From positions 3,247 through 67,246 of the forward strand of contig QHVE01000019.1 of assembly GCA_003223455.1 (NCBI GenBank): a stretch of 64,000 nt of DNA. Direction: 5' to 3'. The position numbers and the translations under genes are program-made. Source of the stretch: Gemmatimonadota bacterium. Its GTDB lineage: Bacteria > Gemmatimonadota > Gemmatimonadetes > Gemmatimonadales > Gemmatimonadaceae. Shown here one piece after another: positions 591-18,407 of this stretch (within the stretch, counting starts at the first letter, position 1; every line of letters begins with the position of its first letter). Under the pieces are notes generated by a model. The model did no database searches. It was not told the origin of the DNA and worked only from the letters and a program-made list of their open reading frames with translations.

Positions 591-652
591 AGCCTACGTG
601 TCAGGTGTTACTCCGATGACGCGCGGCAGCGTTACCGCGCGGTAACGCTGCC
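591..652 (-). promoter_or_regulatory. Tripartite GTTACC-type promoter/operator, copy a
   Basis: Positions 625-652 form a perfect 28-bp palindrome whose core is GCGTTACC-N4-GGTAACGC. A third half-site (GTTACT, 607-612) lies exactly 24 bp gene-proximal of the palindrome arm. Ten bases further on, the minus strand reads TAGGCT (591-596), a plausible -10 box, placing a start near 584, just ahead of the ribosome binding site of the gene at 559. The same spacing occurs at 1881-1939 and 18350-18407. The binding protein is unknown. Confidence 0.7.
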
Positions 653-669
653 ACGCCGTGAGTGGCGGC

Positions 670-1806
670 TCAGGGACGCGCCTGCGCCAGCCGCTCGACC
701 ATGATCTTTCCCAGTCGCAGCGCACCCGCCTTGTCCGTCGACGACGTCTCGTACTCGATCTCGACGGCGCGATCGCCCTTTCTTAGCACCAGCCGCCCGT
801 CGACCGAGATCGCCGTCTCGTCCCACGGCCCCTCTATTGTGTCGGCCGACTGTGCTTCACTGTCGCTCACGACGCGGCTCATCAGGCCGCCTACACCGCG
901 CGTCGCGGCGAGGTCGAACTTCCCGTCGCTCCAGTACGGCCTCACGATCAGCGCATGATGGCGCGCCGTGAAGTAGGCGCAGCTCCTCCCATTCGACAGA
1001 GCCAGCGGTCCATCGCTCGCCGAGCGGTACGGAGCGACGACGAGCTTGCCCAGCACGGACTCGGCTTCCTCGCCCGTGAGCAGGGTGCACGGATCCGCCT
1101 CCGTCTGCTGGTAGACGTTGTCCCGCGATGGGAAGGGCAGGTCGGGAATGCGATCGCGAACGCGCGCGGTGAGCTCGCGCAGCTTTTCGCTCGGCACCCG
1201 CAGCTCGCTCGTCTCGGGGATTGCCGTCACGTCGATGCTTCCAAGCCGGCCACCGTTGAACCGCACCGCGTCCCAGCCGCTCGACTGTGTGCCCCCACTC
1301 GCCGGCTGCGTCGGGCTCTGCTGCGCGGGCCGAGTCGAGTCCGGTCGAGCGTCCTCCAGCCACGACGCCATCTTCCCCATCGCGAGCCTCTCCGCGCGCT
1401 CGCCGGTCTTCACGCCGAGGTCCACCTGCAGCACGAACGCATACGGCTTCTGGTCATTCGGGAGCGTCGATCCGATCCGCTTCTGGAATTCGGCGATCTT
1501 CGCGCGCTTCGCCGCCAGCTCCGCCGGAACCTGCAGCGTGTACATGCATCCCCCCATCTCCGGGCGGGGCGGCTCGGCGAGCGGGCCGACGAGCGCCTCC
1601 ACTTCCGCGGCGGGGATCCACCCGCACTCGTCCGACGGACGCGTCCCGAGCGGCACCTGGCTCGCCGCCCCCCCGCCCCGATCCGACACGGCGGTCCCCT
1701 GAACTTTCACTTCGCGTGTCGCCTGCTCGTTGCTGCCTTCTCCCTTCGCGCACGCGAACAGGGCGGGGAAAAGGCACGCGATCATTGCAACGTGAAACGC
1801 TCTCAT
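670..1806 (-). CDS. Two-domain lipoprotein of the CGWIP/DPCTLL family
   Basis: A 378-aa protein. The start at 1806 is chosen over an ATG five codons upstream because GGAGG lies 6 nt before it and because the signal MRAFHVAMIACLFPALFAC then has the normal length for a lipobox (LFAC). Two halves are visible. The first begins with CGWIPAAEVEALVGPL and has a second Cys in CMYTL. The second (about residue 235 on) begins DPCTLLTGEEAESVLGKL with CAYF and ends in an ETSSTDKAGALRLGK tail. It is a clear paralogue of 16076-17182, similar through most of its length. It is monocistronic here, behind promoter element 1881-1939 and an eroded OmpA tail. Function unknown; probably an inner-leaflet outer-membrane or periplasm-facing lipoprotein. 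Confidence 0.85.
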   Translation of the reverse strand: MRAFHVAMIACLFPALFACAKGEGSNEQATREVKVQGTAVSDRGGGAASQVPLGTRPSDECGWIPAAEVEALVGPLAEPPRPEMGGCMYTLQVPAELAAKRAKIAEFQKRIGSTLPNDQKPYAFVLQVDLGVKTGERAERLAMGKMASWLEDARPDSTRPAQQSPTQPASGGTQSSGWDAVRFNGGRLGSIDVTAIPETSELRVPSEKLRELTARVRDRIPDLPFPSRDNVYQQTEADPCTLLTGEEAESVLGKLVVAPYRSASDGPLALSNGRSCAYFTARHHALIVRPYWSDGKFDLAATRGVGGLMSRVVSDSEAQSADTIEGPWDETAISVDGRLVLRKGDRAVEIEYETSSTDKAGALRLGKIMVERLAQARP

Positions 1807-1874
1807 CTCGATCCTCCGCATGGTCGCAGCAGCTCCGCGCGGGTTGCGCGCGCCCCTTCGACGGTGGTGTCGAT
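1803..1874 (-). pseudogene. Eroded C-terminal tail of an OmpA-family gene
   Basis: Read on the minus strand in one frame, these 24 codons give DTTVEG-AR-TRAELLRPCGGSR and a stop. The intact OmpA-like gene at 17179-18273 ends STIEGRARNRRVELLRPCGGSR. The stop overlaps the ATG of the downstream lipoprotein as ATGA in both places. There is no OmpA reading frame further upstream; the promoter element follows at once. This is therefore a fossil of an OmpA-lipoprotein gene pair whose OmpA part was deleted, leaving promoter, tail and lipoprotein. Confidence 0.75.
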
Positions 1875-1880
1875 TTGCGG

Positions 1881-1939
1881 AGGCTAGCGAGAGAGCGTTA
1901 CCGGTCTGCGTCGGGGGCGCGTTACCGCGGGGTAACGCG
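1881..1939 (-). promoter_or_regulatory. Tripartite GTTACC-type promoter/operator, copy b
   Basis: The palindrome 1918-1939 has 9-bp arms (CGCGTTACC / GGTAACGCG) around a 4-nt spacer. The third half-site GCGTTACC at 1895-1902 is 24 bp from the left arm. The minus strand reads TAGCCT at 1881-1886, in the position of a -10 box, 10 nt from the half-site. The promoter would drive the lipoprotein at 1806 through the OmpA fossil. Confidence 0.7.
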
Positions 1940-1991
1940 TCCTACGGAAGGTCCAGCAAGCACGCAACGAAGCCGGCCGAGCCACGCGCGA

Positions 1992-3401
1992 TCAGCGCTT
2001 GGTCCAGATGATGATCAGTCCGCACCCCGACGAACCGTAAAACTCTGGCGGTGCCCCGACCATGTGGCCCTCCGAGTACGCCGCGATCGCTCCGACCTCG
2101 GCCGGGTTGACGTCGTTGATCGGCTGATTGTGGGCGCCGTTGATGACGACGTCGGCCCTGCATGGGCGGAGTGATCCGGTGCGTGAGCTGACGACGACGG
2201 CCTCGTAGCCGTTGCCGAGGACGCGGAACCCGGGGATCTGCCACAGGAGGTCGCTCGTCATCGCGACGTGTTGCAGCTCCAGCTCTTCGGGGCCGATGAA
2301 GTAGCCACCCATCGACTTCTCCCGAATCTGGTTGAACTGGACGTAGCGCGACCGCTTCGCCACCACCCGGATGGAATCCAGGTTCACGATGCGCTGCAAG
2401 CGCACGTCGCTCGTCACCGTCGTGCCGCTCCGCAGCTCGACGGAGCTCTCGGTCGCTCCGTAGCCGATGTGCCGCACGTCGAGCACCTGAGTGCCGGCCG
2501 GCAGTCCGCGAAGTGAGTAGCGACCCGACGCGTCGGTGTACCCGACGGCGGTGGTGCCGCGCACGCGCACCTCGGCCGACGCCAGCGGCGTGTCGCCGGT
2601 TCCCCGCACGACACCGGCGAGCAGCGCCGTGCCCGACAGCGGCAGCTCATCGCTCGGCGCAGCCGCCGTTCCGGAGTCTGCATCCGCGCGCGAGCCGGAC
2701 ATCGAGAACGAGAGATGGCGGATCGCGACGCCCAGCGTGTCGTCGACGATCGTGCGAAGCACCGCGCCGGTACGACCCTCGTACTGGAGCTGCATCGACA
2801 GGAAGGTGCCGGTCGGCACGCCGCACACGCGATACCAGCCGCCGTCGTCCGTGCTGACGGACGCCGTGCGCTGGCGACTGTCCGGGCGGAGCGTCGTGCG
2901 GTCGACCTCCATCTCCCACCACGCGAGCGCGATCGCGGCGCCGGGAAGCGGACTCTCGGTCTCGGCATCCACCACGTGGCCGAAGATCGCGCCGGTCCCC
3001 GGGGGAAGGGTGGCCCCCGAGCATACCGCCGCACGGAGCTTCCCGGCAGGTGGCACCGCCAGAGTCATCGTCGCGGTGCTTCCGGTTGCGACGTCCGCCG
3101 CGCGCGGCGGGAGCACGATCTCGAGCGAGTCGAGCAGCGGGCTCTCGAAGCCCACCATGTACCGTCCCGAGGGGAGCGCGTCGAAGTGGTATCGACCCGC
3201 CGAGTCGCTGACGGCGGCGCGTGGCACGTCGGTCGGCGATCCCGCGCTGACGGCGAGCACCTTCACGCCAGCGAGCGGGCGACTGTGAACGCTGTCCACC
3301 ACGATGCCCTCGAGTCGGCCAGTGCCGTCGCCCTGGGCGATGGCCTGGTGTGCGAAGCACGGCACCAGCGCGAGAGCGGCGAAGAACCTGATCGGGGTCA
3401 T
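1992..3401 (-). CDS. Carboxypeptidase-regulatory-like protein with C-terminal TonB plug and no barrel
   Basis: A 469-aa secreted protein. A signal peptide (MTPIRFFAALALVPCFAHQA, cleavage near AIAQG) is followed by about three Ig-like CarboxypepD_reg units, for example GRLEGIVVDSVHSRPLAGVK and an internal DASGRYSLRGLPAG. The C-terminal 120 residues resemble a TonB-dependent receptor plug (LELQHVAMTSDLLWQIPGF, then ADVVINGAHNQPINDV), but the protein stops at CGLIIIWTKR with no beta-barrel. GAGAGG lies 6 nt before the ATG. It is a distant paralogue of 11921-13375, which has the same plan and ending. Likely periplasmic or surface; substrate unknown. Confidence 0.8.
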   Translation of the reverse strand: MTPIRFFAALALVPCFAHQAIAQGDGTGRLEGIVVDSVHSRPLAGVKVLAVSAGSPTDVPRAAVSDSAGRYHFDALPSGRYMVGFESPLLDSLEIVLPPRAADVATGSTATMTLAVPPAGKLRAAVCSGATLPPGTGAIFGHVVDAETESPLPGAAIALAWWEMEVDRTTLRPDSRQRTASVSTDDGGWYRVCGVPTGTFLSMQLQYEGRTGAVLRTIVDDTLGVAIRHLSFSMSGSRADADSGTAAAPSDELPLSGTALLAGVVRGTGDTPLASAEVRVRGTTAVGYTDASGRYSLRGLPAGTQVLDVRHIGYGATESSVELRSGTTVTSDVRLQRIVNLDSIRVVAKRSRYVQFNQIREKSMGGYFIGPEELELQHVAMTSDLLWQIPGFRVLGNGYEAVVVSSRTGSLRPCRADVVINGAHNQPINDVNPAEVGAIAAYSEGHMVGAPPEFYGSSGCGLIIIWTKR

Positions 3402-3456
3402 CCTGAACCTCTCGGAACGGAGCGATCAGCCAGATGCAGCGCGGTCACGGGTGCAT

Positions 3457-3484
3457 ACAATACTGTCAACAGGAAGCCTCGCAA
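3457..3484 (-). promoter_or_regulatory. Putative sigma-70-like promoter of the plug-domain gene
   Basis: On the minus strand TTGCGA (3479-3484) and TATTGT (3457-3462) are separated by 16 bp, about 56 nt upstream of the ATG at 3401. The same -35 hexamer occurs in the ilv promoter at 33584-33589. Weak prediction. Confidence 0.3.
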
Positions 3485-3639
3485 GAGCGCGGCCGGCTCC
3501 GTCTCGGGCCACGCTGCAGGATCCAGGGCGTACGCCGCACGCTGGATGCGGTTCGCTGCAGCGCGGCACGATCGTGCAATCCGCGTCGCTCCGGGGGACG
3601 TAAGGTCGGGCGAGGAATCACCTCCCGCCCCACACCACC

Positions 3640-4941
3640 ATGCGCGTACTCCCCCACGCCTCGGCTTTCCTGTTCGGCGCCGTCGTCGCCGTTGCACCGT
3701 CTCATCCGATACCGCCGCCGATCGTCAGCCCGACGATCGCCGCCCTGCGAGACGCCGCGAGCAAGAGCGCGCCCGACGCCGAGGCCCAGTTCTGGGCCCG
3801 TGTCCAGCGCGACGGTACGCCCCTCGTCGAGCCGATTCCCGGCGACACCGCCAACGTGCTCTTCACCTTCGTGTGGCACGGCGACTCGGCGACGAAGCAC
3901 GTCGCGCTCGTCAACACCGCCATCGCCAGCATCGAGCCGGCGCAGGCGCTGCTCACGCGCATCGCCGGCACCGACGTGTGGTATCGCAGCTATGTCGGAC
4001 GTGCCGACTCGCGCTTCTCGTACGAGCTCTCGCCCAACGACAACCTCGTCTCGTTCGACCAGGTGAGCGACTGGGGCGAGCGCAGCGCGACCTTCCACAA
4101 GGATCCGTTCAACAGGCGCGTCCACGCGTCGGGATTCGGACGCGAGCAGTCCGTCGCCGAAGGCCCGCGCGCGCGGCGCGACGAGTGGAGCGACGTGCGC
4201 CCCGACGTGGCCAAGGGGCGCGTCGAGCAAACGACGATCGCGAGCAAGCTGCTCGGCAACACGCGCGACGTGTGGATCTACACGCCGGCCGGCTACGACA
4301 CCCTCGCACGCAAGGGAGGACTGCCGCTGCTCCTCACCTTCGACGGTGGCGAGTACGTGTCGAGCATCCCCGTGCCGACGATGCTCGACAACCTCGTTGC
4401 GACGAAGCGTATCGCGCCGATGGTCGCCGTCTTCGTCGCCAGCCCCGACGAGCAGCGCAACACGGAGCTGAATCAGAACGAGCACTTCGCCGAGTTCCTC
4501 GCCACGGAGCTCGTGCCCTGGGTGCGGGCGAAGTACGCGATCGCGTCGTCGCCGGCGCGCAACGTCGTCGCCGGCTCGAGCATGGGTGGCCTCGCGGCGG
4601 CGTTCGTCGCCAACCGGCATCCCGAGATCTTCGGCAACGTGCTGTCGCAGTCAGGCGCGTACATGTTCGCCGCGCCGGGCGAGCAGACAGCGGAGCGGAT
4701 GAAGCGCGACATCGAGGCGGCGCCGAAGCGCGACATCGCGTACTACCTGGAGGCGGGGATCTACGAGCAGGGACGACTGGACCAGGGCGGGGTCGATCTC
4801 CTGACGTCGAACCGCCATCTGCGCGACGTACTGCGGGCGAAGGGCTATCGCGTGACGTACGCGGAGTATGCCGGGGGGCACGACGATCTCAGTTGGCGGA
4901 GCGGCTTTCCGAACGGATTGATCTCGCTCGTCGGCCGGTAG
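3640..4941 (+). CDS. Secreted enterochelin-esterase-like alpha/beta hydrolase
   Basis: A 433-aa protein with an N-terminal signal. Residues 20-190 are an N-terminal module like that of Fes-type esterases (VLFTFVWHGDSATKHVALVN...DVWYRSYV). The catalytic alpha/beta-hydrolase domain follows (WIYTPAGYDTLARKGGLPLL, LTFDGGEYVS). The nucleophile elbow is AGSSMGGLAA and the probable catalytic His lies in AGGHDDLSW near the C-terminus. Family members cleave esters such as the trilactone of ferric siderophores, but the N-terminal signal and lack of siderophore genes nearby leave the substrate open. It stands alone, transcribed away from the plug protein at 1992-3401. Confidence 0.85.
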   Translation: MRVLPHASAFLFGAVVAVAPSHPIPPPIVSPTIAALRDAASKSAPDAEAQFWARVQRDGTPLVEPIPGDTANVLFTFVWHGDSATKHVALVNTAIASIEPAQALLTRIAGTDVWYRSYVGRADSRFSYELSPNDNLVSFDQVSDWGERSATFHKDPFNRRVHASGFGREQSVAEGPRARRDEWSDVRPDVAKGRVEQTTIASKLLGNTRDVWIYTPAGYDTLARKGGLPLLLTFDGGEYVSSIPVPTMLDNLVATKRIAPMVAVFVASPDEQRNTELNQNEHFAEFLATELVPWVRAKYAIASSPARNVVAGSSMGGLAAAFVANRHPEIFGNVLSQSGAYMFAAPGEQTAERMKRDIEAAPKRDIAYYLEAGIYEQGRLDQGGVDLLTSNRHLRDVLRAKGYRVTYAEYAGGHDDLSWRSGFPNGLISLVGR

Positions 4942-4995
4942 TCGCCGCGATCAGCGCCTCCCTGGAGCGTAGCCTGTCATGTGTGCGATGCCGTA

Positions 4996-7131
4996 TTACG
5001 TGGTCGACGCCCCCAAACCGTTCCGCGCCATCGGAAGCGATCGCACACGAATGCCAGTGGCATCGTAGATGGCCGCGCCGACGGCGGGCGCGATCGCGAT
5101 GATCGGCGTCTCGCCCGCGCCCATCGACGGCTGATCCTTCCTGTTGATCAGGATCACTGCAATCTCCGGAACGTCCAGGAACCGCGGCACGCGGTACTGC
5201 GCCAGCCGCGCGTTGCGTACCACGCCGTTCTCGAAGTCCACCGCCTCGAACAGCGCGCCCCCGATTCCCTGGACGATGCCGCCCGAGATCTGGCTGCGCA
5301 GTCCCGCCGGATTCACCACCGCGCCGCAGTCGAATGCGGCGACGACGCGCACGATCTTCACCGCGCCCGACGCACGATCCGCCGCCACCTCGGCGCACGC
5401 CGCGATGTAGCCGCCCTTCTCGAACCCGCACGCGATCCCGACGCCGTTGCCGCGCTCGGGCTTCTTCCCCCAACCGAACTTCTCCGCCGCCGCCTCGAGT
5501 ACGGCGCGCAGCCGCGCGTCCTCGATGTTCTTCACCCGGAACGCCAGCGGATCCATCGACACCAGCCGAGCCAGCTCGTCGACGTGCATCTCACGCGCGA
5601 AGTTGTTCGCCGTGGCGGCGAGCCCGCGGTACGAGCCCTGGCGCAGCGGCGAGTCGCTCGGGTGGAAGGCGACGCGCTGGTTGGCGATCGCGTACGACGG
5701 CCGGATCGCCGCCGGCCCTGAGTTGTAGTTGTCGAACGTCCACGCCGTGATCGCGCCGTCCTCGCTCACCGCTGCGCCGACGTCGATCACTCCCGCAGGG
5801 CGGAAATACGCCCAACGGAACTCCTCCTCGCGCGACCACACGAGCTTCACCGGCTTGCCCGCGCCCCTGGCCAGCCGAGCGGCTTCCACGGCGACCTCGC
5901 CGGTGTGCTTGCCGCCGTAGCCCGAGCCGGTGTCGGGGACGATCACGCGCACGCGCTCAGGCACGAGACCGAGCGCGCGAACGAGCTCGTCGCGCACGGC
6001 GAACGGACGCTGCGTCCCCGTCCACACGGTGAGCCTGTCGCCCTCGGCACCGCGCGTCCACTGCGCGAGCGCGGCGCGCGGCTCGAGCGGCACGTGCGCG
6101 ATGTACGCCACGGTGTACGTGCGCGCGAGCTTGTGGTCGGCCGACGCCAGCGCGGCGTCGACGTTCCCGTGCACGAACGGCTGCGCGCCGCCGCCGCCCT
6201 CGCCGCCGGCCTGTCGCCCCGATGCGCGCGAGCTCGAGCGCTTCAGATGCTCGTGCACGCTGGTCGACGACGGCTGCGGCTCGCTCGGCGGCGTCCACGT
6301 CGGACGGATCGCCTCGAGCGCACGCTTCGCTTCGGCGCTACTCGGCGCAGCGACGCCGACGAACGTGCCGTCGTGCACGACGACGGCCGACTTCACCGCG
6401 CTCGCGGCGCTCGTGTCCACATTCGCGAGCGTCGCGCCCATCTGCGGCGCGCGGAGCACGCGGCCGTACAGCATTCCCGGCAGCCGCATGTCCGACGTGT
6501 ACTGATGCTTTCCAGTAACGATGTCACGCGCGCCGACCTTCGGCAGCGACGAGCCGGCGATCGTCCACGCCGTCGCCGGCTTCGGTGCGACGTCGGCGGT
6601 GATCGTCTCCGTCAGCCTGCGCCCCGCCGTCAGCTCGCCGAAGCCGAGCGCGCGCTTCGTCTGGGTGTCGACGATGCGGCCGTTCTCGGCGACGAGACGT
6701 GAGCGCTCGACCTTCCACCGCTCGGCCGCCAGTCCGATCAGCAGCTCGCGCGCCGACGCGCCCACGCGCCGGAGCTGCAGTCCCATCTGCGGCGTGGAGC
6801 GGCTGCCGAACGTGCCCATGTCGAACGGCGTGAGCTCCGTGTCGCCCATCACGAGCCGGATCGACTCCACCGGCGCGCGCAGCTCCTCGGCCACGTGCTG
6901 GGTGAGCGACGTGCGGATCCCCTGCCCGAACTCGACCTTCCCGGTGTACACCGTGACCGCGCCGCGCTCGTCGATGTGCAGCCACGCGCTGATGCGATCC
7001 GTGTCGTCCGCCTCGCCCGCGTGCAGCGAAGGTTCGGCGCCGAGCGTCGCCAGCGCCGGAACGCGCGACGCGACGAGCACGACGACCAATCCGCCGCCCA
7101 CTTCCTTGAGGAAATCGCGCCGCGTCGTCAT
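4996..7131 (-). CDS. Molybdopterin-binding large subunit, isoquinoline 1-oxidoreductase/aldehyde dehydrogenase type
   Basis: A 711-aa protein starting MTTRRDFLKEVGGGLVVVLV, a twin-arginine signal (RRDF), so it is probably exported folded with its cofactor. Molybdenum hydroxylase motifs include GSGYGGKHTGEVAVEAARLA and the C-terminal MGAGETPIIAIAPAVGAAIY, whose Glu matches the conserved catalytic position. The length fits IorB-like subunits. The ATG at 7131 overlaps the stop of the iron-sulfur subunit as ATGA, so the two form a translationally coupled pair. No cytochrome subunit is adjacent, so the electron acceptor is unknown. The family oxidises aldehydes or N-heterocycles; the substrate cannot be read from sequence. 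Confidence 0.9.
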   Translation of the reverse strand: MTTRRDFLKEVGGGLVVVLVASRVPALATLGAEPSLHAGEADDTDRISAWLHIDERGAVTVYTGKVEFGQGIRTSLTQHVAEELRAPVESIRLVMGDTELTPFDMGTFGSRSTPQMGLQLRRVGASARELLIGLAAERWKVERSRLVAENGRIVDTQTKRALGFGELTAGRRLTETITADVAPKPATAWTIAGSSLPKVGARDIVTGKHQYTSDMRLPGMLYGRVLRAPQMGATLANVDTSAASAVKSAVVVHDGTFVGVAAPSSAEAKRALEAIRPTWTPPSEPQPSSTSVHEHLKRSSSRASGRQAGGEGGGGAQPFVHGNVDAALASADHKLARTYTVAYIAHVPLEPRAALAQWTRGAEGDRLTVWTGTQRPFAVRDELVRALGLVPERVRVIVPDTGSGYGGKHTGEVAVEAARLARGAGKPVKLVWSREEEFRWAYFRPAGVIDVGAAVSEDGAITAWTFDNYNSGPAAIRPSYAIANQRVAFHPSDSPLRQGSYRGLAATANNFAREMHVDELARLVSMDPLAFRVKNIEDARLRAVLEAAAEKFGWGKKPERGNGVGIACGFEKGGYIAACAEVAADRASGAVKIVRVVAAFDCGAVVNPAGLRSQISGGIVQGIGGALFEAVDFENGVVRNARLAQYRVPRFLDVPEIAVILINRKDQPSMGAGETPIIAIAPAVGAAIYDATGIRVRSLPMARNGLGASTT

Positions 7132-7595
7132 GGCTTCTTCCCCTCCGACGCCACGCGCTCGATCGCGGCGACGATCTGCGGATACGCCCCGCAGCGGCAG
7201 ACGTTGCCGTTCATCCCACGCACGATCTGGTCGGTGGTCGGCGACGGCGTCGACTTCAGGAGCGACACGCCCGCCATGATCATCCCCGCGGTGCAGTAGC
7301 CGCACTGCATGGCGCCCTCGTCCACGAACGCCTGCTGCAGCGGATGGAGACGTCCCTCGCGCTCGAGGCCTTCGATCGTCGTGACCGGTGCCGCGGCCGC
7401 CTTCGCCACCGGCGTCTGGCAGGAGCGCACCGCACGTGCGCCGAGCAGCACCGTGCACGCGCCGCACTCACCCTCGCCGCAGCCGTACTTGCTCCCGGTG
7501 AGCTCCAGCTCCTCGCGGAGCACGCTCAGCAGAGTGCGGTCCGGATCGACGTCGACGCGCTGGCGTCGACCGTTGACGTCGAGCTCGATCAGCAT
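7128..7595 (-). CDS. 2Fe-2S small subunit of the molybdenum hydroxylase
   Basis: A 155-aa protein with two [2Fe-2S] domains. The plant-ferredoxin type is GCGEGECGACTVLLG with a further Cys in RSC; the C-terminal four-helix type is CGYCTAGMIMAG followed by NVCRCGAYPQI. The start at 7595 (MLIELDVNGRR) has GAGGAG 6 nt upstream; an in-frame ATG eight codons earlier is the alternative. It transfers electrons from the molybdenum centre of the coupled large subunit. It has no own signal, so it would be exported as a complex with the Tat-tagged large subunit. Confidence 0.92.
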   Translation of the reverse strand: MLIELDVNGRRQRVDVDPDRTLLSVLREELELTGSKYGCGEGECGACTVLLGARAVRSCQTPVAKAAAAPVTTIEGLEREGRLHPLQQAFVDEGAMQCGYCTAGMIMAGVSLLKSTPSPTTDQIVRGMNGNVCRCGAYPQIVAAIERVASEGKKP

Positions 7596-7695
7596 GGGAG
7601 TCTCCTCGTCCGCTTTCATACCATACGTCGAGTGGCGGCGCGCTGCCAAGGGACCGATTTGCGCCGACCGCCGCTTTCGGTCAAGTTGCCGCGCC

Positions 7696-9405
7696 GTGAC
7701 CCAGCCACCCTCATCGACGCCCTCGCCCGCGCCACCTGCCGAGCAAGACCGGCTGCCGATGGTCGGCTGGTTCGACCCCGGCCAGCTGGTGCGCACGGCG
7801 GTCGACGTCGTCATCTCCGCGATCTTCGCCCGGAACTCCGACCGGCGGGTGCTCGATGCGCTGAGCCATCCCGCTCCCGTGCCGTGCGACTTGTCGAGCA
7901 GCCACGACGAGCTGTGGCTCGACTACGTGGCGGACACCGGCGACGGCTGGAACTCGACGTACGCCGTCGCCCATGCGCTCGCCCAGCCGACGCTCGACGT
8001 CACCGTCGACGGCGAGCGTCGAGAGACGAGGCGCGGCGACGTGCTCGTCTTCGGCGGCGACGCCGTGTATCCGGTGGCGAGTCGCGACGGATATCAGCGT
8101 CGCCTCGTCGGACCGTACCGCACGGCGCTTCCGGCATCGCCGCCGTCGCACCCGACCGTCTTCGCCGTCGCGGGGAATCACGACTGGTACGACAGCCTCG
8201 TCGCCTTCACTCGTCTCTTCTGCACGGGGGGCAAGAGAACGTTCGCCGGCTGGCGCACGCACCAGACGCGCAGCTACTTCGCCATCAAGCTCCCGCACGA
8301 ATGGTGGCTGATCGGCACCGACGTCCAGCTCGAGTCGGACATCGACGATCCGCAGCTCGAGTACTTCCGCGGCATCGCCGCGACGATGGGAGACGACGAC
8401 CGGATCATCCTCTGCACCGCCGAGCCGAACTGGATCACCGAGCAGCGCTACCGGCGGTTCGACCGCGAGATGACCGATCGGAACCTTCCGTTCCTGGAGC
8501 AGAAGGTGTTCGGCAATCGCGTCGCCGTGTTCATCGCCGGCGACCTGCACCACTATCGCCGTCACGCCGACGCCGCGGGTCGCCAGAAGATCACTGCCGG
8601 AGGTGGCGGCGCCTTCCTCTATCCGACGCACGTCGATCTCGACGAGGTGCGCGAGCTCGAGGGCGGATACACGTACCGGACGAGCTATCCCCCTCCAGAA
8701 CGATCGAAGGCGCTCTCGCGTGGGCTGCTGCGCTTCGCGCGATTCAATCCGTCGTTCGGCTGGGTGACCGCGCTGTTCTACCTGCTGTTCGCGATGGCGA
8801 TCAAGGTGGACATCGGTCATCTCGGCGCGCGCGACGTCGTGCAGGTGCTGCACCTCGTACTCGCCGGGATCCTCAACAGCCAGATCGCGCTCCTCTGGGG
8901 AATGCTCCTGCTGTTCGGATTCTACTTCTTCACCGATACCCACGACGAGAGCTTCAAGCGCTGGGGCGGCCTCACCCATGCACTGGCGCACCTCACGACT
9001 GCGTTCCTGCTCGGCTGGTTCGGCTCCTACTTCTCGGAGAGCTGGCTCGGGCTCGAGGTGAACAGCATCTCCCAGATCCTCGTGACGGGGATCGTGATCG
9101 TGCTCGGCGGCTTCCTGATCGGGCCGACGATCATGGGCCTCTACCTCTTCTGCTCGATGCACTGGTTCGGGCGCCACGCCGACGAATTCTCGGCGCTCAA
9201 GTGCGAGGACTGGAAGAGCTGGGTGCGGATGCACGTCTCGGCCACCGGCGAGCTGCGCATCTACGCGCTCGGAATCGACGCCGTGCCGCGCGAGTGGGCG
9301 GAGGCGACGCCCACGGACTTCCAGCCATCGCTTCTCGTGCCGGACGATCGGAGCGCGACTGCTCCGAAGCTGGTCGACTACGTTGAGGTGACACGCGCAC
9401 GTTGA
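7696..9405 (+). CDS. Membrane-anchored calcineurin-like metallophosphoesterase
   Basis: About 569 aa from a GTG at 7696 (an ATG at 7759 is the alternative). The metal-binding motifs are in the expected order: GDAVYP, VAGNHDWYDS and IAGDLHHYRRH, with GGGGAF following. The C-terminal 200 residues contain several hydrophobic helices (VTALFYLLFAMAIKV, IALLWGMLLLFGFYFF, ILVTGIVIVLGGFLIG) and a short cytoplasmic or periplasmic tail. It is probably a phosphodiesterase or phosphatase held at the inner membrane. No cognate partner is adjacent; it is transcribed divergently from the molybdenum hydroxylase pair. Confidence 0.8.
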   Translation: MTQPPSSTPSPAPPAEQDRLPMVGWFDPGQLVRTAVDVVISAIFARNSDRRVLDALSHPAPVPCDLSSSHDELWLDYVADTGDGWNSTYAVAHALAQPTLDVTVDGERRETRRGDVLVFGGDAVYPVASRDGYQRRLVGPYRTALPASPPSHPTVFAVAGNHDWYDSLVAFTRLFCTGGKRTFAGWRTHQTRSYFAIKLPHEWWLIGTDVQLESDIDDPQLEYFRGIAATMGDDDRIILCTAEPNWITEQRYRRFDREMTDRNLPFLEQKVFGNRVAVFIAGDLHHYRRHADAAGRQKITAGGGGAFLYPTHVDLDEVRELEGGYTYRTSYPPPERSKALSRGLLRFARFNPSFGWVTALFYLLFAMAIKVDIGHLGARDVVQVLHLVLAGILNSQIALLWGMLLLFGFYFFTDTHDESFKRWGGLTHALAHLTTAFLLGWFGSYFSESWLGLEVNSISQILVTGIVIVLGGFLIGPTIMGLYLFCSMHWFGRHADEFSALKCEDWKSWVRMHVSATGELRIYALGIDAVPREWAEATPTDFQPSLLVPDDRSATAPKLVDYVEVTRAR

Positions 9406-9498
9406 AGCGGCGAGCGGTGGAACGCGCGTCCGTCCATGCACGTAGGGCACTTCGAGTTGGCGCGACCGCGCCTTCATCTAATCCACACGACGGCGACC

Positions 9499-11274: not shown

Positions 11275-11305
11275 CCGATCGGCTGCGCGAACCCCTGCAC
11301 GACGA

Positions 11306-11884
11306 TCAACACAGAAGGTCCGCCGTCCCGCCGCGCGAGCTCACCCAGCGCCAGCCAGCGGGCGCTCGCGCGAGCAGATGCCTCGCGAAGACGAGGACGT
11401 GCGTGTCGGGTGTCATCTCGCAGGTCTGCCAGTTCCAGTATTCCATCACGTACGCCGTGTCGCCGACGAACTCGAGCCCGAGCGAGAGCTCGACGGGAAT
11501 CGGAGACGATCCCAGCCTCGAGAGCGCCTCGAGCTGGGCGAGCGCGCGTGTCGAGTCCATGGCCCATCCGTATTTGTGGAACCAGTGGTGGGCACGCAGC
11601 CGAGCCACGCTCGGCTCGGCCCAGGCGCCATGCGGTGTCCTGCCGACGCGCACGAGCAGGCGCGACAGACTTGGGTATTCAGGCTCGAGCCTGGGGTCGG
11701 CCGCCACGCGAGCGGCACTCGCCGAGTCGTCGGCGATCAACATCTCCACCGTCGTGCCGAACGCGCCGGCGCTGTCGGCCACCGAATGTTGCGGCGCAAC
11801 CGGCTGCGGCCGCGGCTCCGGGTGCATCGCGCACGAGGACGTGAGGCCGAGCCATACGATCCACAGTGCATTCGCGCGTCTCAC
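11306..11884 (-). CDS. Putative lipoprotein of unknown function
   Basis: A 192-aa protein starting at GTG (11884), supported by GGGAGGG 6 nt upstream. MRRANALWIVWLGLTSSCAM is a short lipoprotein signal with SSC as likely lipidation site. The body has conserved-looking Trp-rich segments (AHHWFHKYGWAMDSTRAL, YVMEYWNWQTCEM), but I recognise no family. It is convergent with the hydrolase at 9499-11274. Confidence 0.6.
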   Translation of the reverse strand: MRRANALWIVWLGLTSSCAMHPEPRPQPVAPQHSVADSAGAFGTTVEMLIADDSASAARVAADPRLEPEYPSLSRLLVRVGRTPHGAWAEPSVARLRAHHWFHKYGWAMDSTRALAQLEALSRLGSSPIPVELSLGLEFVGDTAYVMEYWNWQTCEMTPDTHVLVFARHLLARAPAGWRWVSSRGGTADLLC

Positions 11885-11920
11885 GCCAACCCTCCCAATT
11901 GGACGACGAGTCTGGTCCGA

Positions 11921-13375
11921 CTACTTCGTCCACACGATGATCGCTCCACAGTTCGTCGTCGAGCTCCCGGTATATCGCGCGGGCACTGCATCACCCTCCC
12001 GATATACCTCGATTCCATAGATGCTCCTCGGCGGGATCAGATCCAGCTCTTCTAGGCTGGCCTGGGATCCGTCGATGAACACCGCGGGAACTCCGCCGCA
12101 TGACGAAAAATTGGGCGCCGGCGGCCCGGTCATCACCGCCCGGCCTCCCTGGCTGGTACTCCTCGTCACTTCCTGGATCCCCAGCAGCGTCGAGGTACCG
12201 CGCGAGGACTTCGTGGCCAACATCCGGTCCCCGCCCGAGGTCACGTGCGTGAACATGCCAGGCAGCATGACCAGCGCATCCGAGACGCGGAAGAACGGCC
12301 GCTTCGACATGTCCTCGGCGGTGAGATATCTGCCGCCGCCGTGCCCATAGCGATCGTCGAACTCGCGATGAAATGGCGAGCCATCGCCGCGCCGGGCGGT
12401 GATGCGCACGGCTTCGAGCATCGTCACGCGCTGGAGCGCCGCACGCACCTCGTACGATGCGGGTGCGTCCAGCAGGAGTGTCACATGCTCCGGGTAGTAG
12501 CCGGGCGCGGAGATCTCGAGCTGCTGCGATCCGGCCGGGACATCAGGGACCGCGAACCTGCCCCGCGCATCGGCGGACACGACGACATTCGACGTGAGCG
12601 AGCGTACGCGCGCGCCTGAAATCTGTGCTCCTTCCGCATTGACGACGGCTCCTGCCACGATTCCCCTGTCGGCGACCGTCGCAGGAATGCCGAGCACCAG
12701 CGGAAGAACGCCGGCGCGCGACACCTGCATCTCGAGAATTCCCGTATTCGAGGCGCCCGACTGCGCTTGAATCCTGAACCCGAGGCCGATCGGGACGCCG
12801 CAGTAGCGGAACGCGCCTCCTGCGTCGGTCGTCGCCGACGTCGTCGTCGTGTGTCCCGTCGCCTTCCCCGTAGTCGTGTCGACTCTCCACTCCGACCATT
12901 GCAGGACGACCGTGGCGCCGGCGATGGGACGTGCGCCAGGCACTTCCGAGACGACGCCGATCACGGCGCCGTGCGCATCGCCGCCCACACCCGACGGACA
13001 GACGCTACGCAGACGGCCGGCGACCGAGGCGGTCGCGAGCTGCACCTCGGAGCTCGCATTGTCCGTCATCTGGACCGTCGCCGTCGGCGAGGGGATCGTC
13101 AGACTGTCCAGCGTCGGATGCTCGACCGAGAGCACGTAGGTGCCGGGGGACGGCGCCTTCAGCTCGAAGCGTCCGGCGCCGTCGGTCTCGGTCGTCGTCA
13201 TCGTGCCCGGCACACCGGCCTCCATGCGCGTCGCCACGACCGTGGCGTGAACGAGCACGTGCTGGGTGACGCTGTCGAAGACGGTTCCTCTGACCATCGT
13301 CTGCGCCGACAACTCCGATGGCATCGCCGGCGGCAGCATGAGGAAAGCACCGAGCGCCCAGACGGTGAGCGACAT
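11921..13375 (-). CDS. Carboxypeptidase-regulatory-like protein with C-terminal TonB plug and no barrel
   Basis: About 484 aa when started at 13375, where MSLTVWALGAFLMLPPAMPS forms a signal ending near LSAQT. An ATG at 13450 would add 25 residues; neither has a strong ribosome site. The order is three Ig-like CarboxypepD_reg units (VRGTVFDSVTQHVLVHATVV, GAVIGVVSEVPGARPIAGAT, IVAGAVVNAEGAQISGARVR), then a plug-like segment (YLTAEDMSKRPFFRVSDAL) ending CGAIIVWTK. It has the same architecture and end as 1992-3401. The missing barrel suggests these proteins act as periplasmic or surface binding modules rather than transporters. Confidence 0.78.
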   Translation of the reverse strand: MSLTVWALGAFLMLPPAMPSELSAQTMVRGTVFDSVTQHVLVHATVVATRMEAGVPGTMTTTETDGAGRFELKAPSPGTYVLSVEHPTLDSLTIPSPTATVQMTDNASSEVQLATASVAGRLRSVCPSGVGGDAHGAVIGVVSEVPGARPIAGATVVLQWSEWRVDTTTGKATGHTTTTSATTDAGGAFRYCGVPIGLGFRIQAQSGASNTGILEMQVSRAGVLPLVLGIPATVADRGIVAGAVVNAEGAQISGARVRSLTSNVVVSADARGRFAVPDVPAGSQQLEISAPGYYPEHVTLLLDAPASYEVRAALQRVTMLEAVRITARRGDGSPFHREFDDRYGHGGGRYLTAEDMSKRPFFRVSDALVMLPGMFTHVTSGGDRMLATKSSRGTSTLLGIQEVTRSTSQGGRAVMTGPPAPNFSSCGGVPAVFIDGSQASLEELDLIPPRSIYGIEVYREGDAVPARYTGSSTTNCGAIIVWTK

Positions 13376-13573
13376 GCGAGTGGGTCTCTGCAATCGGCCC
13401 TGACGGTTGGAGGCCGGGACAATGTGCTGCCTGAACGATCGGGCGTCCATTGCTGCACCCATCGGCGCAGTACGACCAAGTACGGCTGGTCCGCCCGAAC
13501 CCCGAGGATGCAGCATTAGGTGAAATTGGCCGCCCTCCACGCACGAACACACCTACCTCATTTCGGAGGCAAC

Positions 13574-13753
13574 ATGGCAACCAACCCGCCCAAGCGACAT
13601 CGCATCGGAGCCGTCCGGGAGCGGTCGCAGGTCAAGAATCCGGTGAACGGCCACTGGACCAAGCGAGACGCCCAGACCGGCCGGTTCATCGATCAGAAAG
13701 CCGACGGCAAGCCATTCGCGGGCGTGAGAAAGGAAGCCGAGCCGCCCAAATAG
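13574..13753 (+). CDS. Small conserved basic protein
   Basis: A 59-aa protein. The ATG at 13574 is preceded by GGAGG at a 4-nt gap. The sequence contains RSQVKNPVNGHWTKRDAQTG and ends FAGVRKEAEPPK. This looks like a small, widespread uncharacterised family in proteobacteria (pattern RSQ-NP-TG-W-KRD-TGRF-D-K-DG-PFKGV-KE), recalled from memory, not searched. It is strongly basic and soluble. The gene is 40 nt upstream of the SDR gene and may share its transcript. Confidence 0.75.
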   Translation: MATNPPKRHRIGAVRERSQVKNPVNGHWTKRDAQTGRFIDQKADGKPFAGVRKEAEPPK

Positions 13754-13792
13754 CCGGAAAACGAGCCCGGCGGGTCGCGCTATCTTTCCGGG

Positions 13793-15361
13793 ATGTCCAT
13801 CCCACGATACACACCCATCGAGGAGCACGACCTCGACACCCTGCGCGACGAGATCCGGTCGGCGACCGAGCTCCTGGAGCGCATCGTCGCCGACCGCGGT
13901 CTGCTCGCCTCCATTCCGAAGGAGGAGCGCGACCGCCTGCGCGACGCCGTCGCTCTCGTCTACCATCCCGACGCCAGGGCGCGCCGGACGATGGTCAAGG
14001 CGACCATCCGTCAGCGCAAGGCGGCCGCCGTCCGCAAAGAGGAAGAGGTGCTCGAGGAGCGGGGCATTCGCTCGCTGCGCCGGCAGTCGGTGTTCAATAC
14101 GCCGAACATCTTCCCGCCCGAACGGTTCGAGCAGGCCGACGTCGACGATCCCGACTTCCGCGAGACGGTGGAAGAGCGGCACTGCTACGTCTGCAAGGAG
14201 CAGTACTCGACGCTTCATCACTTCTACGACCAGCTCTGCCCGGCCTGCGGCGACTTCAACTTCGCGAAGCGTACGGAGCTCGCCGACCTGACCGGCCGCA
14301 CCGCGCTTCTCACCGGCGGCCGCGTGAAGATCGGCTACCAGGCCGGCCTCAAGCTCCTCCGCGCCGGCGCGCGTCTGATCGTCACGACGCGCTTCCCGCG
14401 CGACTCGGCCGCACGCTACTCGCGCGAGCCCGACTTCGAGCAGTGGGCCCACCGCCTCGAGATCTTCGGGCTCGATCTGCGGCACACGCCGAGCGTCGAC
14501 GCGTTCTGCCACGAGCTCCTCGCGTCGCACGACCGGCTCGACTTCATCGTCAACAACGCCTGTCAGACCGTGCGGCGTCCGCCCGCGTTCTACGAGCACA
14601 TGATGGAAGGCGAGCGCGCGAGCGTGCACTCGCTCCCCGAGCCCGCGCGCCGACTGCTCGGCCGCTACGAGGGGCTCCGCGGCGAGAGCTTCGTCGGCGG
14701 CACGAACGCCGGCGCGCTCACCGCCGGCACGCCGTCAGCCAGCTCGGAGACGATGGGCCTCGTGCATGCCGCAGCGCTGTCGCAGGTGGCGCTGCTCGCC
14801 GAGGACGACGTCGAGCCGCATCTCTTCCCGCAGGGACACCTCGATCAGGATCTGCAGCAGGTCGATCTGCGCGAGCGCAACTCCTGGCGCATGCTGCTGT
14901 CCGATGTGCCGACCGTCGAGCTGCTCGAGGTGCAGCTCGTCAACGCGATCGCGCCCTTCCTCCTCAACGCGCGGCTCAAGCCCCTCATGCTGCGCACCCC
15001 CGAGCGCGACAAGCACATCGTCAACGTCTCGGCGATGGAGGGACAGTTCTACCGCAACCAGAAGACGACGCGCCATCCGCACACCAACATGGCCAAGGCC
15101 GCGCTCAACATGTTGACGCGCACCTCGGCCACCGAGTGCTTCCACCAGGGTATTCACATGAACAGCGTGGACACCGGGTGGGTGACCGACGAGGATCCGG
15201 CGGAGCTCGCGGCGCGGAAGACGAAGGAGCACCGATTCCACCCCCCGCTGGACATCGTGGACGGGGCGGCGCGGATCGTGGATCCCATCATGAGCGGGAT
15301 CAACACGGGAGAGCACGTGTGGGGGAAGTTCTTGAAGGACTACAGGGAGACCGACTGGTAG
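13793..15361 (+). CDS. SDR-family oxidoreductase with N-terminal zinc ribbon
   Basis: A 522-aa protein, about twice the usual SDR length. Residues 1-125 are helical and charged. Residues 131-152 form a probable zinc ribbon (C131, C134, C149, C152). From about 168 comes a Rossmann fold with TGRTALLTGGRVKIGYQ (variant TGxxxGxG) and the NNACQT motif. The usual catalytic YxxxK is HTNMAK here, so Thr431 stands in the Tyr position ahead of Lys435, while VSAMEGQFY supplies a Ser and a Tyr nearby. An insertion of about 100 residues separates the NNA motif from the active-site region. Substrate unknown; catalysis may differ from classical SDRs. Confidence 0.8.
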   Translation: MSIPRYTPIEEHDLDTLRDEIRSATELLERIVADRGLLASIPKEERDRLRDAVALVYHPDARARRTMVKATIRQRKAAAVRKEEEVLEERGIRSLRRQSVFNTPNIFPPERFEQADVDDPDFRETVEERHCYVCKEQYSTLHHFYDQLCPACGDFNFAKRTELADLTGRTALLTGGRVKIGYQAGLKLLRAGARLIVTTRFPRDSAARYSREPDFEQWAHRLEIFGLDLRHTPSVDAFCHELLASHDRLDFIVNNACQTVRRPPAFYEHMMEGERASVHSLPEPARRLLGRYEGLRGESFVGGTNAGALTAGTPSASSETMGLVHAAALSQVALLAEDDVEPHLFPQGHLDQDLQQVDLRERNSWRMLLSDVPTVELLEVQLVNAIAPFLLNARLKPLMLRTPERDKHIVNVSAMEGQFYRNQKTTRHPHTNMAKAALNMLTRTSATECFHQGIHMNSVDTGWVTDEDPAELAARKTKEHRFHPPLDIVDGAARIVDPIMSGINTGEHVWGKFLKDYRETDW

Positions 15362-15514
15362 GAGCGCCGTCGGAGCGGGGGCTTCCGTCACGCCGAGTGG
15401 CCACATCGGGACGCATGAGGTCATTCAGCACCGAGACCGCACGGGAAGTGACTAGCGCAGCATCCGTCGTTGAGCGCGTCGACATCGCCACACACCAGAC
15501 CGGGAGAGGCACAT

Positions 15515-16042
15515 ATGACGAAGCTCACGAGGAACGCTCTTCTGCTCGCGTCGATCGGCCTCGCGGCCGGCACGTCGGTCGCGCTCGCGCAGGGGACCGG
15601 CAAAGTGCTCGACGCCTGTACCTTGCTCAGTGGGCCGGAAGTCCGAACCGTCTCCAAGCGGTCCGATCTCGCCACCGGGACGCCGCGAACGCACCAGATC
15701 TCCACGGCGAGCTACTCGAGCTGCATCCTCGCCGGTACGATCGACATCGGCATCACCCTGAACACGAACACGAATGACTACTACGCCAGGATGCGCGACA
15801 CCTACCTGAAGGCGCCACCCAGCTCCGGCTTCCGAGTCGAGAAGCAAGGCGGGCTCGGCGACGACGCGTACGTGCTGTTCGCGCCGCCCGGCACACACGT
15901 CAGGCTCGAGATGCTCGTCGGAGCGCGGCGGGTCAGCCTGAACGTCGCGAAGACCACCGACACGCAGCAGGCGGTGCCGGAAGCGGAAGCGAAACGCATC
16001 GCGCTCGCTGTCGCGTCGGCGCTGGTGCCAAAGCTGCGCTGA
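15515..16042 (+). CDS. Secreted protein with DACTLLSGPEV signature
   Basis: A 175-aa protein. The ATG at 15515 has AGAGG 6 nt upstream. A signal peptide (MTKLTRNALLLASIGLAAGT, cleavage near ALAQG) is followed by DACTLLSGPEVRTV and, later, GDDAYVLFAPPGTHVRLEML. These match the spacing of the CxLL...Cys...GD(D/E)AY pattern in the protein at 1-559, so it is probably a soluble member of the same loose family. It faces the related lipoprotein 16076-17182 tail to tail, 33 nt apart, but lacks the GTTACC promoter element. Function unknown. Confidence 0.75.
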   Translation: MTKLTRNALLLASIGLAAGTSVALAQGTGKVLDACTLLSGPEVRTVSKRSDLATGTPRTHQISTASYSSCILAGTIDIGITLNTNTNDYYARMRDTYLKAPPSSGFRVEKQGGLGDDAYVLFAPPGTHVRLEMLVGARRVSLNVAKTTDTQQAVPEAEAKRIALAVASALVPKLR

Positions 16043-16075
16043 CGGCCCGCGAGCACGACGGAGACGGGTTCCACA

Positions 16076-17182
16076 TCAGTCCCCGCTCGCCAGCCGCACG
16101 ATCGCGATCTTGCCGAGCCGCAGCGCTCCCGCCTTGTCCGTCGAGGAGGTCTCGAACTCGAGCTCGATCGCGCGATCGTCCTTCCGCAGCAGGAGCCGTC
16201 CGTCGCGCGAGATCGCGGTCTCGTCCCACGTGCCCTCGATCGTGTCGGCCGCCGCCGCCTCGCTGTCGCTCACCATGGCGTCCATCACGCCGCCGATCAC
16301 GCGCGTGAGATCCAGCTCCCGCTTTCCGCCACTGCGGTGAGGCGTGATGACGAACACGTGGTGCTTCGCCGAGTGATAGGCGCAGCTCTCCCCGTTCGGA
16401 TGCGCCAGTGGGCCGCCATCCCCCGAGCGGTACGGCGCGACGACGAGCTTCCCCAGCACGGCTTCGGCTTCCTCCCGTGTGAGGAGCGTGCACGGATCGG
16501 GACTCGCCTGCGGATGAAAATCGGCCGGCATGGCGAACGGGAGATCGGGAATGCGGTCGCGAACGCGCGCCGAGAGCTCGCGAAGCGTGTCTCGCGGCAC
16601 GCGGACGTCGGCCGTCAGCCCGACCGCGGTCACGGAGATCGTGCCGAGCCGCCCGCCGTTCAATCGCACCGCATCCCATCCGGTCGACGCCGATTGACCG
16701 GCCTTCACGCTCTCGGCCAGCTTCCCGCCCATGAGCCGCAGCGTCCGCTCGCCCGTTGCGACCCCCACGCCGACCTCCAGCAGCACCCCATACGGCGTAT
16801 CCAGCCACGGGCGCTCCGGCGTGATGCCGAACTTCCGGTTGTTCTCCGCCAGCCGCTCACGCATGGCGGCGACGTCGGGCGAGATCGGTAGCGTGTACAG
16901 GCACCCTTTTCCGGTCGGACGCGGCGGCGCGGCGAACGGACCGATCATCGCCTCGACCTCCGGCGCGGGAATCCAGCCGCAGGCGTCCGACGGCGGCGTC
17001 GCCATCGGCACCTGGCTCGGCGCGTCCGTCTTCCCACTCGGTGCTCCCGCCTGCCGCGTCGTCGCGCTGGATGCGCTGGTCGACGTCCGGGCGCCCTCCA
17101 CTGGCGCCTGATCGCTCTCTGCCTTCGCGCAGGCGACGACGGCGGTGAGACACGAGATCGCTGCAATCTGAGACGTTCTCAT
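16076..17182 (-). CDS. Two-domain lipoprotein of the CGWIP/DPCTLL family
   Basis: A 368-aa protein. The ATG at 17182 has GGAGG 6 nt upstream and overlaps the stop of the OmpA-like gene as ATGA. The signal MRTSQIAAISCLTAVVACAK has lipobox VVAC. The first half starts CGWIPAPEVEAMIGPF, the second DPCTLLTREEAEAVLGKL, with ETSSTDKAGALRLGK near the C-terminus. It is a close paralogue of 670-1806 in both halves and in the translation-start region. Coupling to an OmpA peptidoglycan-binding protein suggests the two act together at the outer membrane-peptidoglycan interface (inference). Confidence 0.85.
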   Translation of the reverse strand: MRTSQIAAISCLTAVVACAKAESDQAPVEGARTSTSASSATTRQAGAPSGKTDAPSQVPMATPPSDACGWIPAPEVEAMIGPFAAPPRPTGKGCLYTLPISPDVAAMRERLAENNRKFGITPERPWLDTPYGVLLEVGVGVATGERTLRLMGGKLAESVKAGQSASTGWDAVRLNGGRLGTISVTAVGLTADVRVPRDTLRELSARVRDRIPDLPFAMPADFHPQASPDPCTLLTREEAEAVLGKLVVAPYRSGDGGPLAHPNGESCAYHSAKHHVFVITPHRSGGKRELDLTRVIGGVMDAMVSDSEAAAADTIEGTWDETAISRDGRLLLRKDDRAIELEFETSSTDKAGALRLGKIAIVRLASGD

Positions 17183-18273
17183 CGAGATCCTCCACATGGG
17201 CGCAGCAGCTCGACGCGCCGGTTGCGCGCGCGTCCCTCGATGGTCGAGTTGCTCTCGCGCGGTCTGGTCTGTCCGTACCCGACGGCCCGCAGCCGCGCCG
17301 GCGCGATGCGCTGGCTGGTCAACCGCGCTCGCACGGCGGCGGCGCGCCGCTCCGACAGCGCGGCGTTCGCGGCGCTCGTGCCGATGCTGTCGGTGTGCCC
17401 CTCGATCGTCACCGTCCAGTCGGGGTGGCGCTCGAGCATCCGCGCCAGCGCGATGAGCGTCTCGTCCGACGCGGGGTTCAGGACCGCGCTGGCCGACTCG
17501 AAGTAGATGCCTGGAACCTCGACGCGGCACGACCGCGCGAGCGTCCCTTCGAGCGACCGGGCACCGTCGGCGACGGCGGTGCCGAGGTCCGCTCGTACCG
17601 TCTGGAACACACGGCGCGAGTCCTCGAGCTTGAGGATCAGCGGATGGTCGCGCTGCGCGAGCACCCAGAGGTGCGGTGCCCAGCTCTCGCCGCGCGCGGT
17701 GAACTTTCCCTCGAGGTGCAGGGCGGGCACGGCGACGCGCTTTCCGTCGAGCAGCAAGGGGAAGGGCACGGTGCCGCTTCCCACCCGCGTCAGGGTCCCG
17801 CGCCATCGCACGAGGGCCGGGCCCCCAGCGAGCCCGAGCGCCGCGAGCTGGGGGACGGTCGATTCGGCGAAGCCGAGGAGCGAGAACGGCGCCGATCCCG
17901 CCGAGCCGATCTGATCGAACACGGCCCGCGAGATGGTGAATGCGGTGTAGCCAGGATGCTCGGGCGGCTGGCCGCGGTCGTAGACCTGGTGCCACCGCGG
18001 CGCGGTGTCGAGATCGGCCTGGCGCACGAGCCGCTCGTACCTGCCTCGGGTGGTGTCGCCCCTCGCAGACACCTCGAGAAAGGTCCACACGTAGCGGACG
18101 CCGGTGGGCGACGCATCGGCGAGGCTGACCACCGACTCGCGATCGGCGCCCTCGTCGCGCAGCGTCTGCACGAGCGTGAGCCCTCGGGCGAGCGGCACGC
18201 TGGGGGCGGAGCCCTGCGCCGATGCCATGCCGCCCGTCAGGCACAGCGCTGCGGCGATCAAGCGGATGCGCAT
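17179..18273 (-). CDS. OmpA-family protein with C-terminal peptidoglycan-binding domain
   Basis: A 364-aa protein starting MRIRLIAAALCLTGGMASAQ (signal). The first 230 residues are unrecognised, with VRYVWTFLEVSARGDTTRGR. Residues from about 250 form an OmpA/MotB domain: IYFESASAVLNPASDETLIA, then VTIEGHTDSIGTSAANAALS and ARLRAVGYGQTRP, with RARNRRVELL at the end. TDS and the NRRVE Arg are the usual diaminopimelate-binding residues. It is the first gene of a two-gene operon behind element 18350-18407; the second gene starts inside its stop codon. Confidence 0.9.
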   Translation of the reverse strand: MRIRLIAAALCLTGGMASAQGSAPSVPLARGLTLVQTLRDEGADRESVVSLADASPTGVRYVWTFLEVSARGDTTRGRYERLVRQADLDTAPRWHQVYDRGQPPEHPGYTAFTISRAVFDQIGSAGSAPFSLLGFAESTVPQLAALGLAGGPALVRWRGTLTRVGSGTVPFPLLLDGKRVAVPALHLEGKFTARGESWAPHLWVLAQRDHPLILKLEDSRRVFQTVRADLGTAVADGARSLEGTLARSCRVEVPGIYFESASAVLNPASDETLIALARMLERHPDWTVTIEGHTDSIGTSAANAALSERRAAAVRARLTSQRIAPARLRAVGYGQTRPRESNSTIEGRARNRRVELLRPCGGSR

Positions 18274-18349
18274 GAGGCCAATGTCTCCGTCGTCGGGTTG
18301 AGATGAACCCGGAGGCAAACACTCCCCCCAGGTCGTCGTGACGTGTGGG

Positions 18350-18407
18350 AGTATTGGATGGTGCCGTTACGCCGCTGCGACGGAGGAGCGTTACCTGACG
18401 GTAACGC
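18350..18407 (-). promoter_or_regulatory. Tripartite GTTACC-type promoter/operator, copy c
   Basis: The palindrome 18388-18407 is GCGTTACC-TGAC-GGTAACGC. A third half-site (CCGTTACG, 18364-18371) lies exactly 24 bp from the left arm. The minus strand reads AATACT at 18350-18355, 10 nt from it, in the -10 position. It would drive ompA and the lipoprotein with a leader of about 70 nt. It also lies 139 bp ahead of the divergent kinase gene, so control of that gene is possible. Confidence 0.7.

Follow-up and report, generated by a model that had tools for sequence, protein, structure and literature searches.

The window, a stretch of 64,000 nucleotides on contig C81 of a draft Gemmatimonadota genome, carries three minus-strand promoters of the same construction, each standing before a gene for a predicted envelope protein. 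The gene that follows site 1 (1-559) encodes a small lipoprotein and runs past the start of the window into a run of Ns; this 266-base run (G000:C81:2981-3246), directly left of window position 1, truncates the gene, and its C-terminal part is missing. Site 2 precedes a gene (670-1821) for a 383-aa DUF3558-like lipoprotein with a weak Pfam match. Site 3 precedes a gene (17179-18318) for an OmpA-family protein (Pfam OmpA, 80.9 bits), whose true start codon may lie inside this open reading frame, and a second gene after it (16076-17170) encodes another lipoprotein of the DUF3558-like kind, which shares 53% identity with the product of the site 2 gene. The Pfam DUF3558 matches of these two lipoproteins fall below the curated cut-off. 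The first-pass annotation of this DNA had placed the targets in one lipoprotein/OmpA family. The products are of distinct kinds (small lipoprotein, DUF3558-like and OmpA), but they do belong together, since their homologs share a single gene cluster in a related genome, G134.

Several neighboring genes lie outside this set. At 15470-16042 on the plus strand, beside the site 3 operon and without an operator, lies a gene for a small exported protein that contains the DUF3558-like motif DACTLLSGPEV. A plus-strand gene at 18546-21452, divergent from the site 3 operon, combines a Ser/Thr kinase, an FGE-sulfatase and a hydrolase-like part, and a further Ser/Thr kinase gene lies downstream of the site 1 gene (G000:C81:1587-2327, minus strand). 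The closeness of kinases to the site 1 and site 3 genes is perhaps due to chance, because the genome contains approximately 68 kinase matches.

Read on the minus strand, each of the three operators consists of GCGTTACC-N4-GGTAACGC, a further GTAAC 24 bp on from the proximal half of the palindrome, a gap of 10 nt and a hexamer. At site 1 the distal inverted pair, GCGTTACC-GCGC-GGTAACGC, occupies 629-648 (inverted half 642-646, direct half 631-635), the proximal GTAAC lies at 607-611 and the hexamer TAGGCT at 591-596. The corresponding elements of site 2 are the distal pair at 1919-1938 (inverted half 1932-1936, direct half 1921-1925), the proximal GTAAC at 1897-1901 and TAGCCT at 1881-1886, and those of site 3 are the distal pair at 18388-18407 (inverted half 18401-18405, direct half 18390-18394), the proximal GTAAC at 18366-18370 and AATACT at 18350-18355. 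A TTGACA-like -35 hexamer 17 nt before the -10 is absent at all three window sites. The tripartite geometry proposed from the first reading of the sequence is thus real, at the positions given there and on the minus strand. The palindrome and the third half-site are both present, but that description was incomplete, as the third half-site is preceded, at a distance of exactly 11 bp, by a fourth and degenerate one: GCGTC (618-622) at site 1, GACGC (1908-1912) at site 2 and GTCGC (18377-18381) at site 3.

The layout is rare. A search of all 4,959,095 bases (4.96 Mb, 127 contigs) with a 21-base pattern returned exactly three matches without mismatch, all of them the window sites, against a chance expectation of approximately 1.5e-6 from base composition. 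Allowing up to three mismatches added only the opposite strand of site 2, and a reversed-pattern control searched over the whole genome with up to three mismatches gave no matches. The looser form GTAAC-N17..19-RTAAC-N10-.A...T again found the window's three sites alone. The many random genomic matches that would have spoken against the first reading did not turn up, and the sites behave as would be expected of a binding site, as first suggested. The exact palindrome alone has four copies in the genome, the three in the window and one on contig C51 (C51:28177).

In other genera, the genes for homologs of the site 2 product have upstream arrays of related half-sites, such as ATAAC-11-GTAACG-12-GTAGC-11-ATAAC. 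A search of 179 family genomes for the array gave seven matches at zero or one mismatch, all within one genus and most of them preceding DUF3558-like genes or operons containing one; a control pattern had no match in the genomes concerned. In 19 of 19 arrays, the last half-site is followed at a distance of exactly 10 nt by a hexamer of the form.A...T (A in second place, T in sixth), while the other offsets tested score only 0 to 2, which fixes the likely -10 element. By this offset test the hexamers TAGGCT, TAGCCT and AATACT of the window do stand in the place of -10 elements, as the first-pass annotation had proposed. DUF3558-like genes elsewhere have a BTAD/SARP gene within 6 kb in 10 of 39 cases, versus a roughly estimated expectation of 2%. 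In genus g37 (L077 3362-7337, L080 9205-11250 and L081 9945-12140), the array stands before operons in which a DUF3558-like lipoprotein gene is accompanied by one for a single-span membrane protein of 305 aa (MTERKRR...) and, in some cases, by one for a 630-aa exported protein; neither of these two proteins has a Pfam match.

The same arrays are found beside SARP genes across the Gemmatimonadota. Among the upstream regions of 110 SARP genes, 13 contain the array plus -10 on the divergent strand and none on the SARP strand, compared to a shuffle mean of 0.05. In a second set of 51 new SARP regions, drawn after the pattern had been fixed from named records that belong almost entirely to Gemmatimonadota, there were nine on the divergent strand, none on the SARP strand and none in shuffles. 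A count at the -10 offset in the 110 regions that was blind to the half-site revealed raised lags of 11, 22, 23 and 33 on the divergent strand only. Lag 26 was likewise raised on that strand (seven regions). An unbiased heptamer lag test gave peaks at lags 11 and 24, with individual matches mixed with chance GC-rich ones, and lends weak support. When an inverted GTTAC or GTCAC was required and the third half-site was loosened, a choice made after the orthologs of the C51 protein described below had been seen, 25 sites with a -10 were obtained, the window's three included; without the -10 criterion there were 26 tripartite matches, 25 of which have the hexamer at +10. Overall, the operator lies in divergent promoters at 22 SARP loci and never on the opposite strand, and the matches span many genera but are related sequences and hence not independent. 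One SARP with the same operator (GTCAC-N8-GTAAC-22-GTGAC) comes from a record labelled Chloroflexi bacterium CF_47 (L304); mis-binning or transfer is likely, because this SARP groups inside those of Gemmatimonadota.

Alignment of 24 operators, registered on the proximal half-site, showed that position -7 is a C in every one of them. This base, which the pattern had not required, is exactly 11 bp away from the C in the proximal half-site. The base after half-site 2 is also invariant (G in 24 of 24). Because of the invariant C, the operator is read as four half-sites: inverted, direct, degenerate direct and direct. The spacer between the inverted and direct distal halves is 6, 7, 8 or 9 among homologous operators, and the distance from half-site 2 to the last half-site ranges from 22 to 24 bp, with 24 in the window. 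The distal pair could also be viewed as a pure 11-bp direct repeat, which GTTAC-N6-GTAAC fits as well. This reading was rejected as a general rule, since spacers of 7 to 9 occur and operators with GTGAC often carry its inverse, GTCAC, as the first half-site.

SARP targets contain direct repeats whose spacing is 11 or 22 bp, and the repeat at the 3' end lies 8 bp from the -10 (PMC10936776). By their spacing, the last two half-sites form a classical 11-bp SARP pair: the proximal pair is exactly 11 bp apart, and GTAACNN followed by 8 bp and.A...T is found in 25 of 26 matches. The 24-bp lag in the window deviates from 22. In contrast to known SARP sites, which are direct repeats, the distal half-site is inverted: it reads GTTAC, or GTCAC in operators with GTGAC at the other half-sites, and for this reason the operator is classed as a variant of the SARP operator. 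In a SARP review the terms "inverted" and "palindrom" are absent, such that an inverted distal half-site is undescribed there.

The first-pass annotation had named no regulator. A candidate can now be proposed, namely the BTAD/SARP gene beside the only exact palindrome of the genome outside the window. The palindrome at C51:28177 is flanked by a lipoprotein gene and, in divergent orientation, a gene (G000:C51:28295, plus strand) for a 940-aa SARP-TPR protein. This protein has a BTAD domain by Pfam (61.6 bits; cut-off, 22.1) and TPR repeats. Pfam reports neither Trans_reg_C nor a nucleotide-binding domain, but the N-terminal part matches residues of the DNA-binding domain of AfsR in sequence (E 4e-4), with a weaker match to EmbR. 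In a fold search with a model of this part, which is of low confidence there, the top six matches were EmbR and AfsR chains. The proximal half-site at the C51 locus itself is weak (ACGAC, three of five bases). The residues LRQ-x-[LI]-[HY] of the recognition helix are common to SARPs associated with GTAAC; as a pointer to C51-type proteins the helix was dropped, because other SARPs share these residues.

The genome encodes approximately 14 BTAD proteins, and none of the BTAD matches listed lies on the window's contig. It is conceivable that the sites are SARP operators regulated by another of these proteins, for example the C6 paralog, which is 47% identical to the C51 protein. Several observations make this unlikely. 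Among the genome's own SARPs scanned, the GTTAC-N6-GTAAC pair occurs upstream of the C51 gene alone. The spacer of the distal pair follows the SARP tree, with 4 label changes compared to a mean of 10.1 for shuffled labels. All proteins with an N6 spacer form one clade (support 100/98), and the clade of the C51 SARP alone carries N6. The combination of N6 and a 24-bp lag is confined to the window's sites, C51 and the locus of the C51 ortholog in G134. There, a single 10-kb contig holds the ortholog (55% identical over 931 residues), a divergent lipoprotein gene bearing the operator, an OmpA gene (53% identical to that of site 3), a homolog of the site 1 product (34%) and a gene for a DUF3558-like protein (42% identity with the site 2 product), which ties the window genes to the ortholog of the C51 SARP. 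Because these homologs are clustered with the ortholog in G134, the window genes appear to belong to a cluster that this genome has divided between C51 and C81, a history that we infer, with the shared operator still joining the two parts.

Other SARPs of this genome adjoin repeats of different sequence, which also argues against them as regulators of the window sites. At four such loci (L107, L104, L106 and L108, on C86, C53, C32 and C57, respectively), 11-bp repeats stand near a.A...T hexamer. The repeats are GCTAAT/GCTAAC at C86, TAACC at C53, GGTGAGA at C32 and TTCACG at C57. The SARPs of the genome may thus share a single operator grammar while differing in half-site vocabulary.

OmpR/PhoB-type response regulators share the DNA-binding fold of SARPs and bind 11-bp direct repeats in place of a -35. 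Binding of the window sites by a regulator of this type, as at pho, GlnR or CpxR boxes, would fit the fold class, the repeat period and the geometry alone; the GTnAC half-sites resemble GlnR boxes, and the genome has six clear OmpR-type genes. Such binding is nonetheless quite improbable, given that no clear OmpR-type gene lies on C81 or C51, the operator adjoins SARP genes at 22 loci and its spacer tracks the SARP tree. A TetR-type repressor bound to the palindrome, with the third half-site and hexamer incidental, could appeal to G013, in which two GTTACC-N4-GGTAAC palindromes adjoin TetR-like and efflux genes. This reading was rejected as very improbable, since in homologous operators the palindrome spacer can be anything between 6 and 9 bases long, yet the proximal half-sites and the -10 hold exact register, the opposite of what selection by a palindrome-binding dimer would produce. 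Palindrome pairs of the GTTACC-N4-GGTAAC type occur at L007 1501-1551 (G013) and L014 1501-1542 (G005), and the G013 pair, between TetR-like and efflux-type genes, represents a different use of the same half-site. The loose resemblance to LytTR targets noted in the first reading found no support: LytTR proteins recognize direct repeats with a spacing of roughly 21-22 bp, but an invariant half-site at 11 bp is, to our knowledge, foreign to their targets, and none of the four LytTR genes of the genome lies on C81 or C51, making a LytTR regulator scarcely credible.

The C51 SARP can be compared with known systems. Like AfsR of Streptomyces coelicolor, a large SARP that binds the afs box (PMC10936776), it combines a winged helix, BTAD and TPR, and the window operators share with the afs box the 11-bp direct repeats over a missing -35, the divergence from the consensus -35 and, provided GTAACNN is counted as the repeat, the distance of 8 bp from the 3' repeat to the -10. 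Unlike the afs box, the window operators have the half-site GTAAC instead of the AfsR repeat and an extra upstream inverted half-site. The C51 protein, unlike AfsR, has no nucleotide-binding domain by Pfam, and its proposed targets, in this different phylum, belong to the envelope rather than to antibiotic production or afsS. The PimR operators of Streptomyces natalensis consist of three heptameric direct repeats with 4-bp spacers (PMC5930380). They likewise have more than two repeats at an 11-bp period and lie between divergent genes, but all of their repeats face one direction, there is no overlap with the -35, and the half-site and targets are different. EmbR of Mycobacterium tuberculosis, the top fold match of the modeled C51 N-terminal part, has an FHA domain where the C51 protein has its TPR region. 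EmbR has links with envelope genes and with a Ser/Thr kinase; we know of no EmbR operator with the layout seen in the window. Both AfsR and EmbR take kinase input (PMC10972967).

Operator anatomy, the -10 position, the association with SARP genes, the clade-specific spacer and cluster homology were all read from the sequence, and from them we infer binding, activation and the identity of the regulator. The three sites are very probably SARP-activated promoters, with the C51 SARP as the most likely regulator of a small envelope regulon. The small dedicated envelope regulon envisaged at the outset is thereby supported. By analogy with AfsR, SARP protomers would occupy both proximal 11-bp repeats next to one another, covering the place of the missing -35, and recruit RNA polymerase via sigma region 4. 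Further protomers would be held by the distal inverted pair. The C51 SARP would most likely act next to its own gene, where the divergent lipoprotein promoter lies, as well as in trans on the three promoters of the window, such that the lipoproteins and the OmpA protein would be switched on together.

SARP operators themselves are known; the new features here are the inverted distal half-site and the proposed targets in the envelope. Our search found no literature on SARPs (or BTAD) in Gemmatimonadota, which is weak evidence as most subscription papers were outside its reach. A broader, tentative possibility is that Gemmatimonadota use an expanded SARP family as local and trans switches of lipoprotein/OmpA modules, that the four-half-site operator with its clade-specific spacer in the distal pair seats an assembly larger than the AfsR dimer, and that kinases beside the targets may feed in signals, as AfsK does for AfsR.

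SARPs have mostly been studied as activators of actinomycete antibiotic clusters. Through the operator code described here, one particular SARP would be connected with envelope genes in a SARP-rich phylum. The inverted distal pair raises the question of SARP assembly beyond the dimer, and the code is precise enough to predict the regulons of other SARPs in these genomes.
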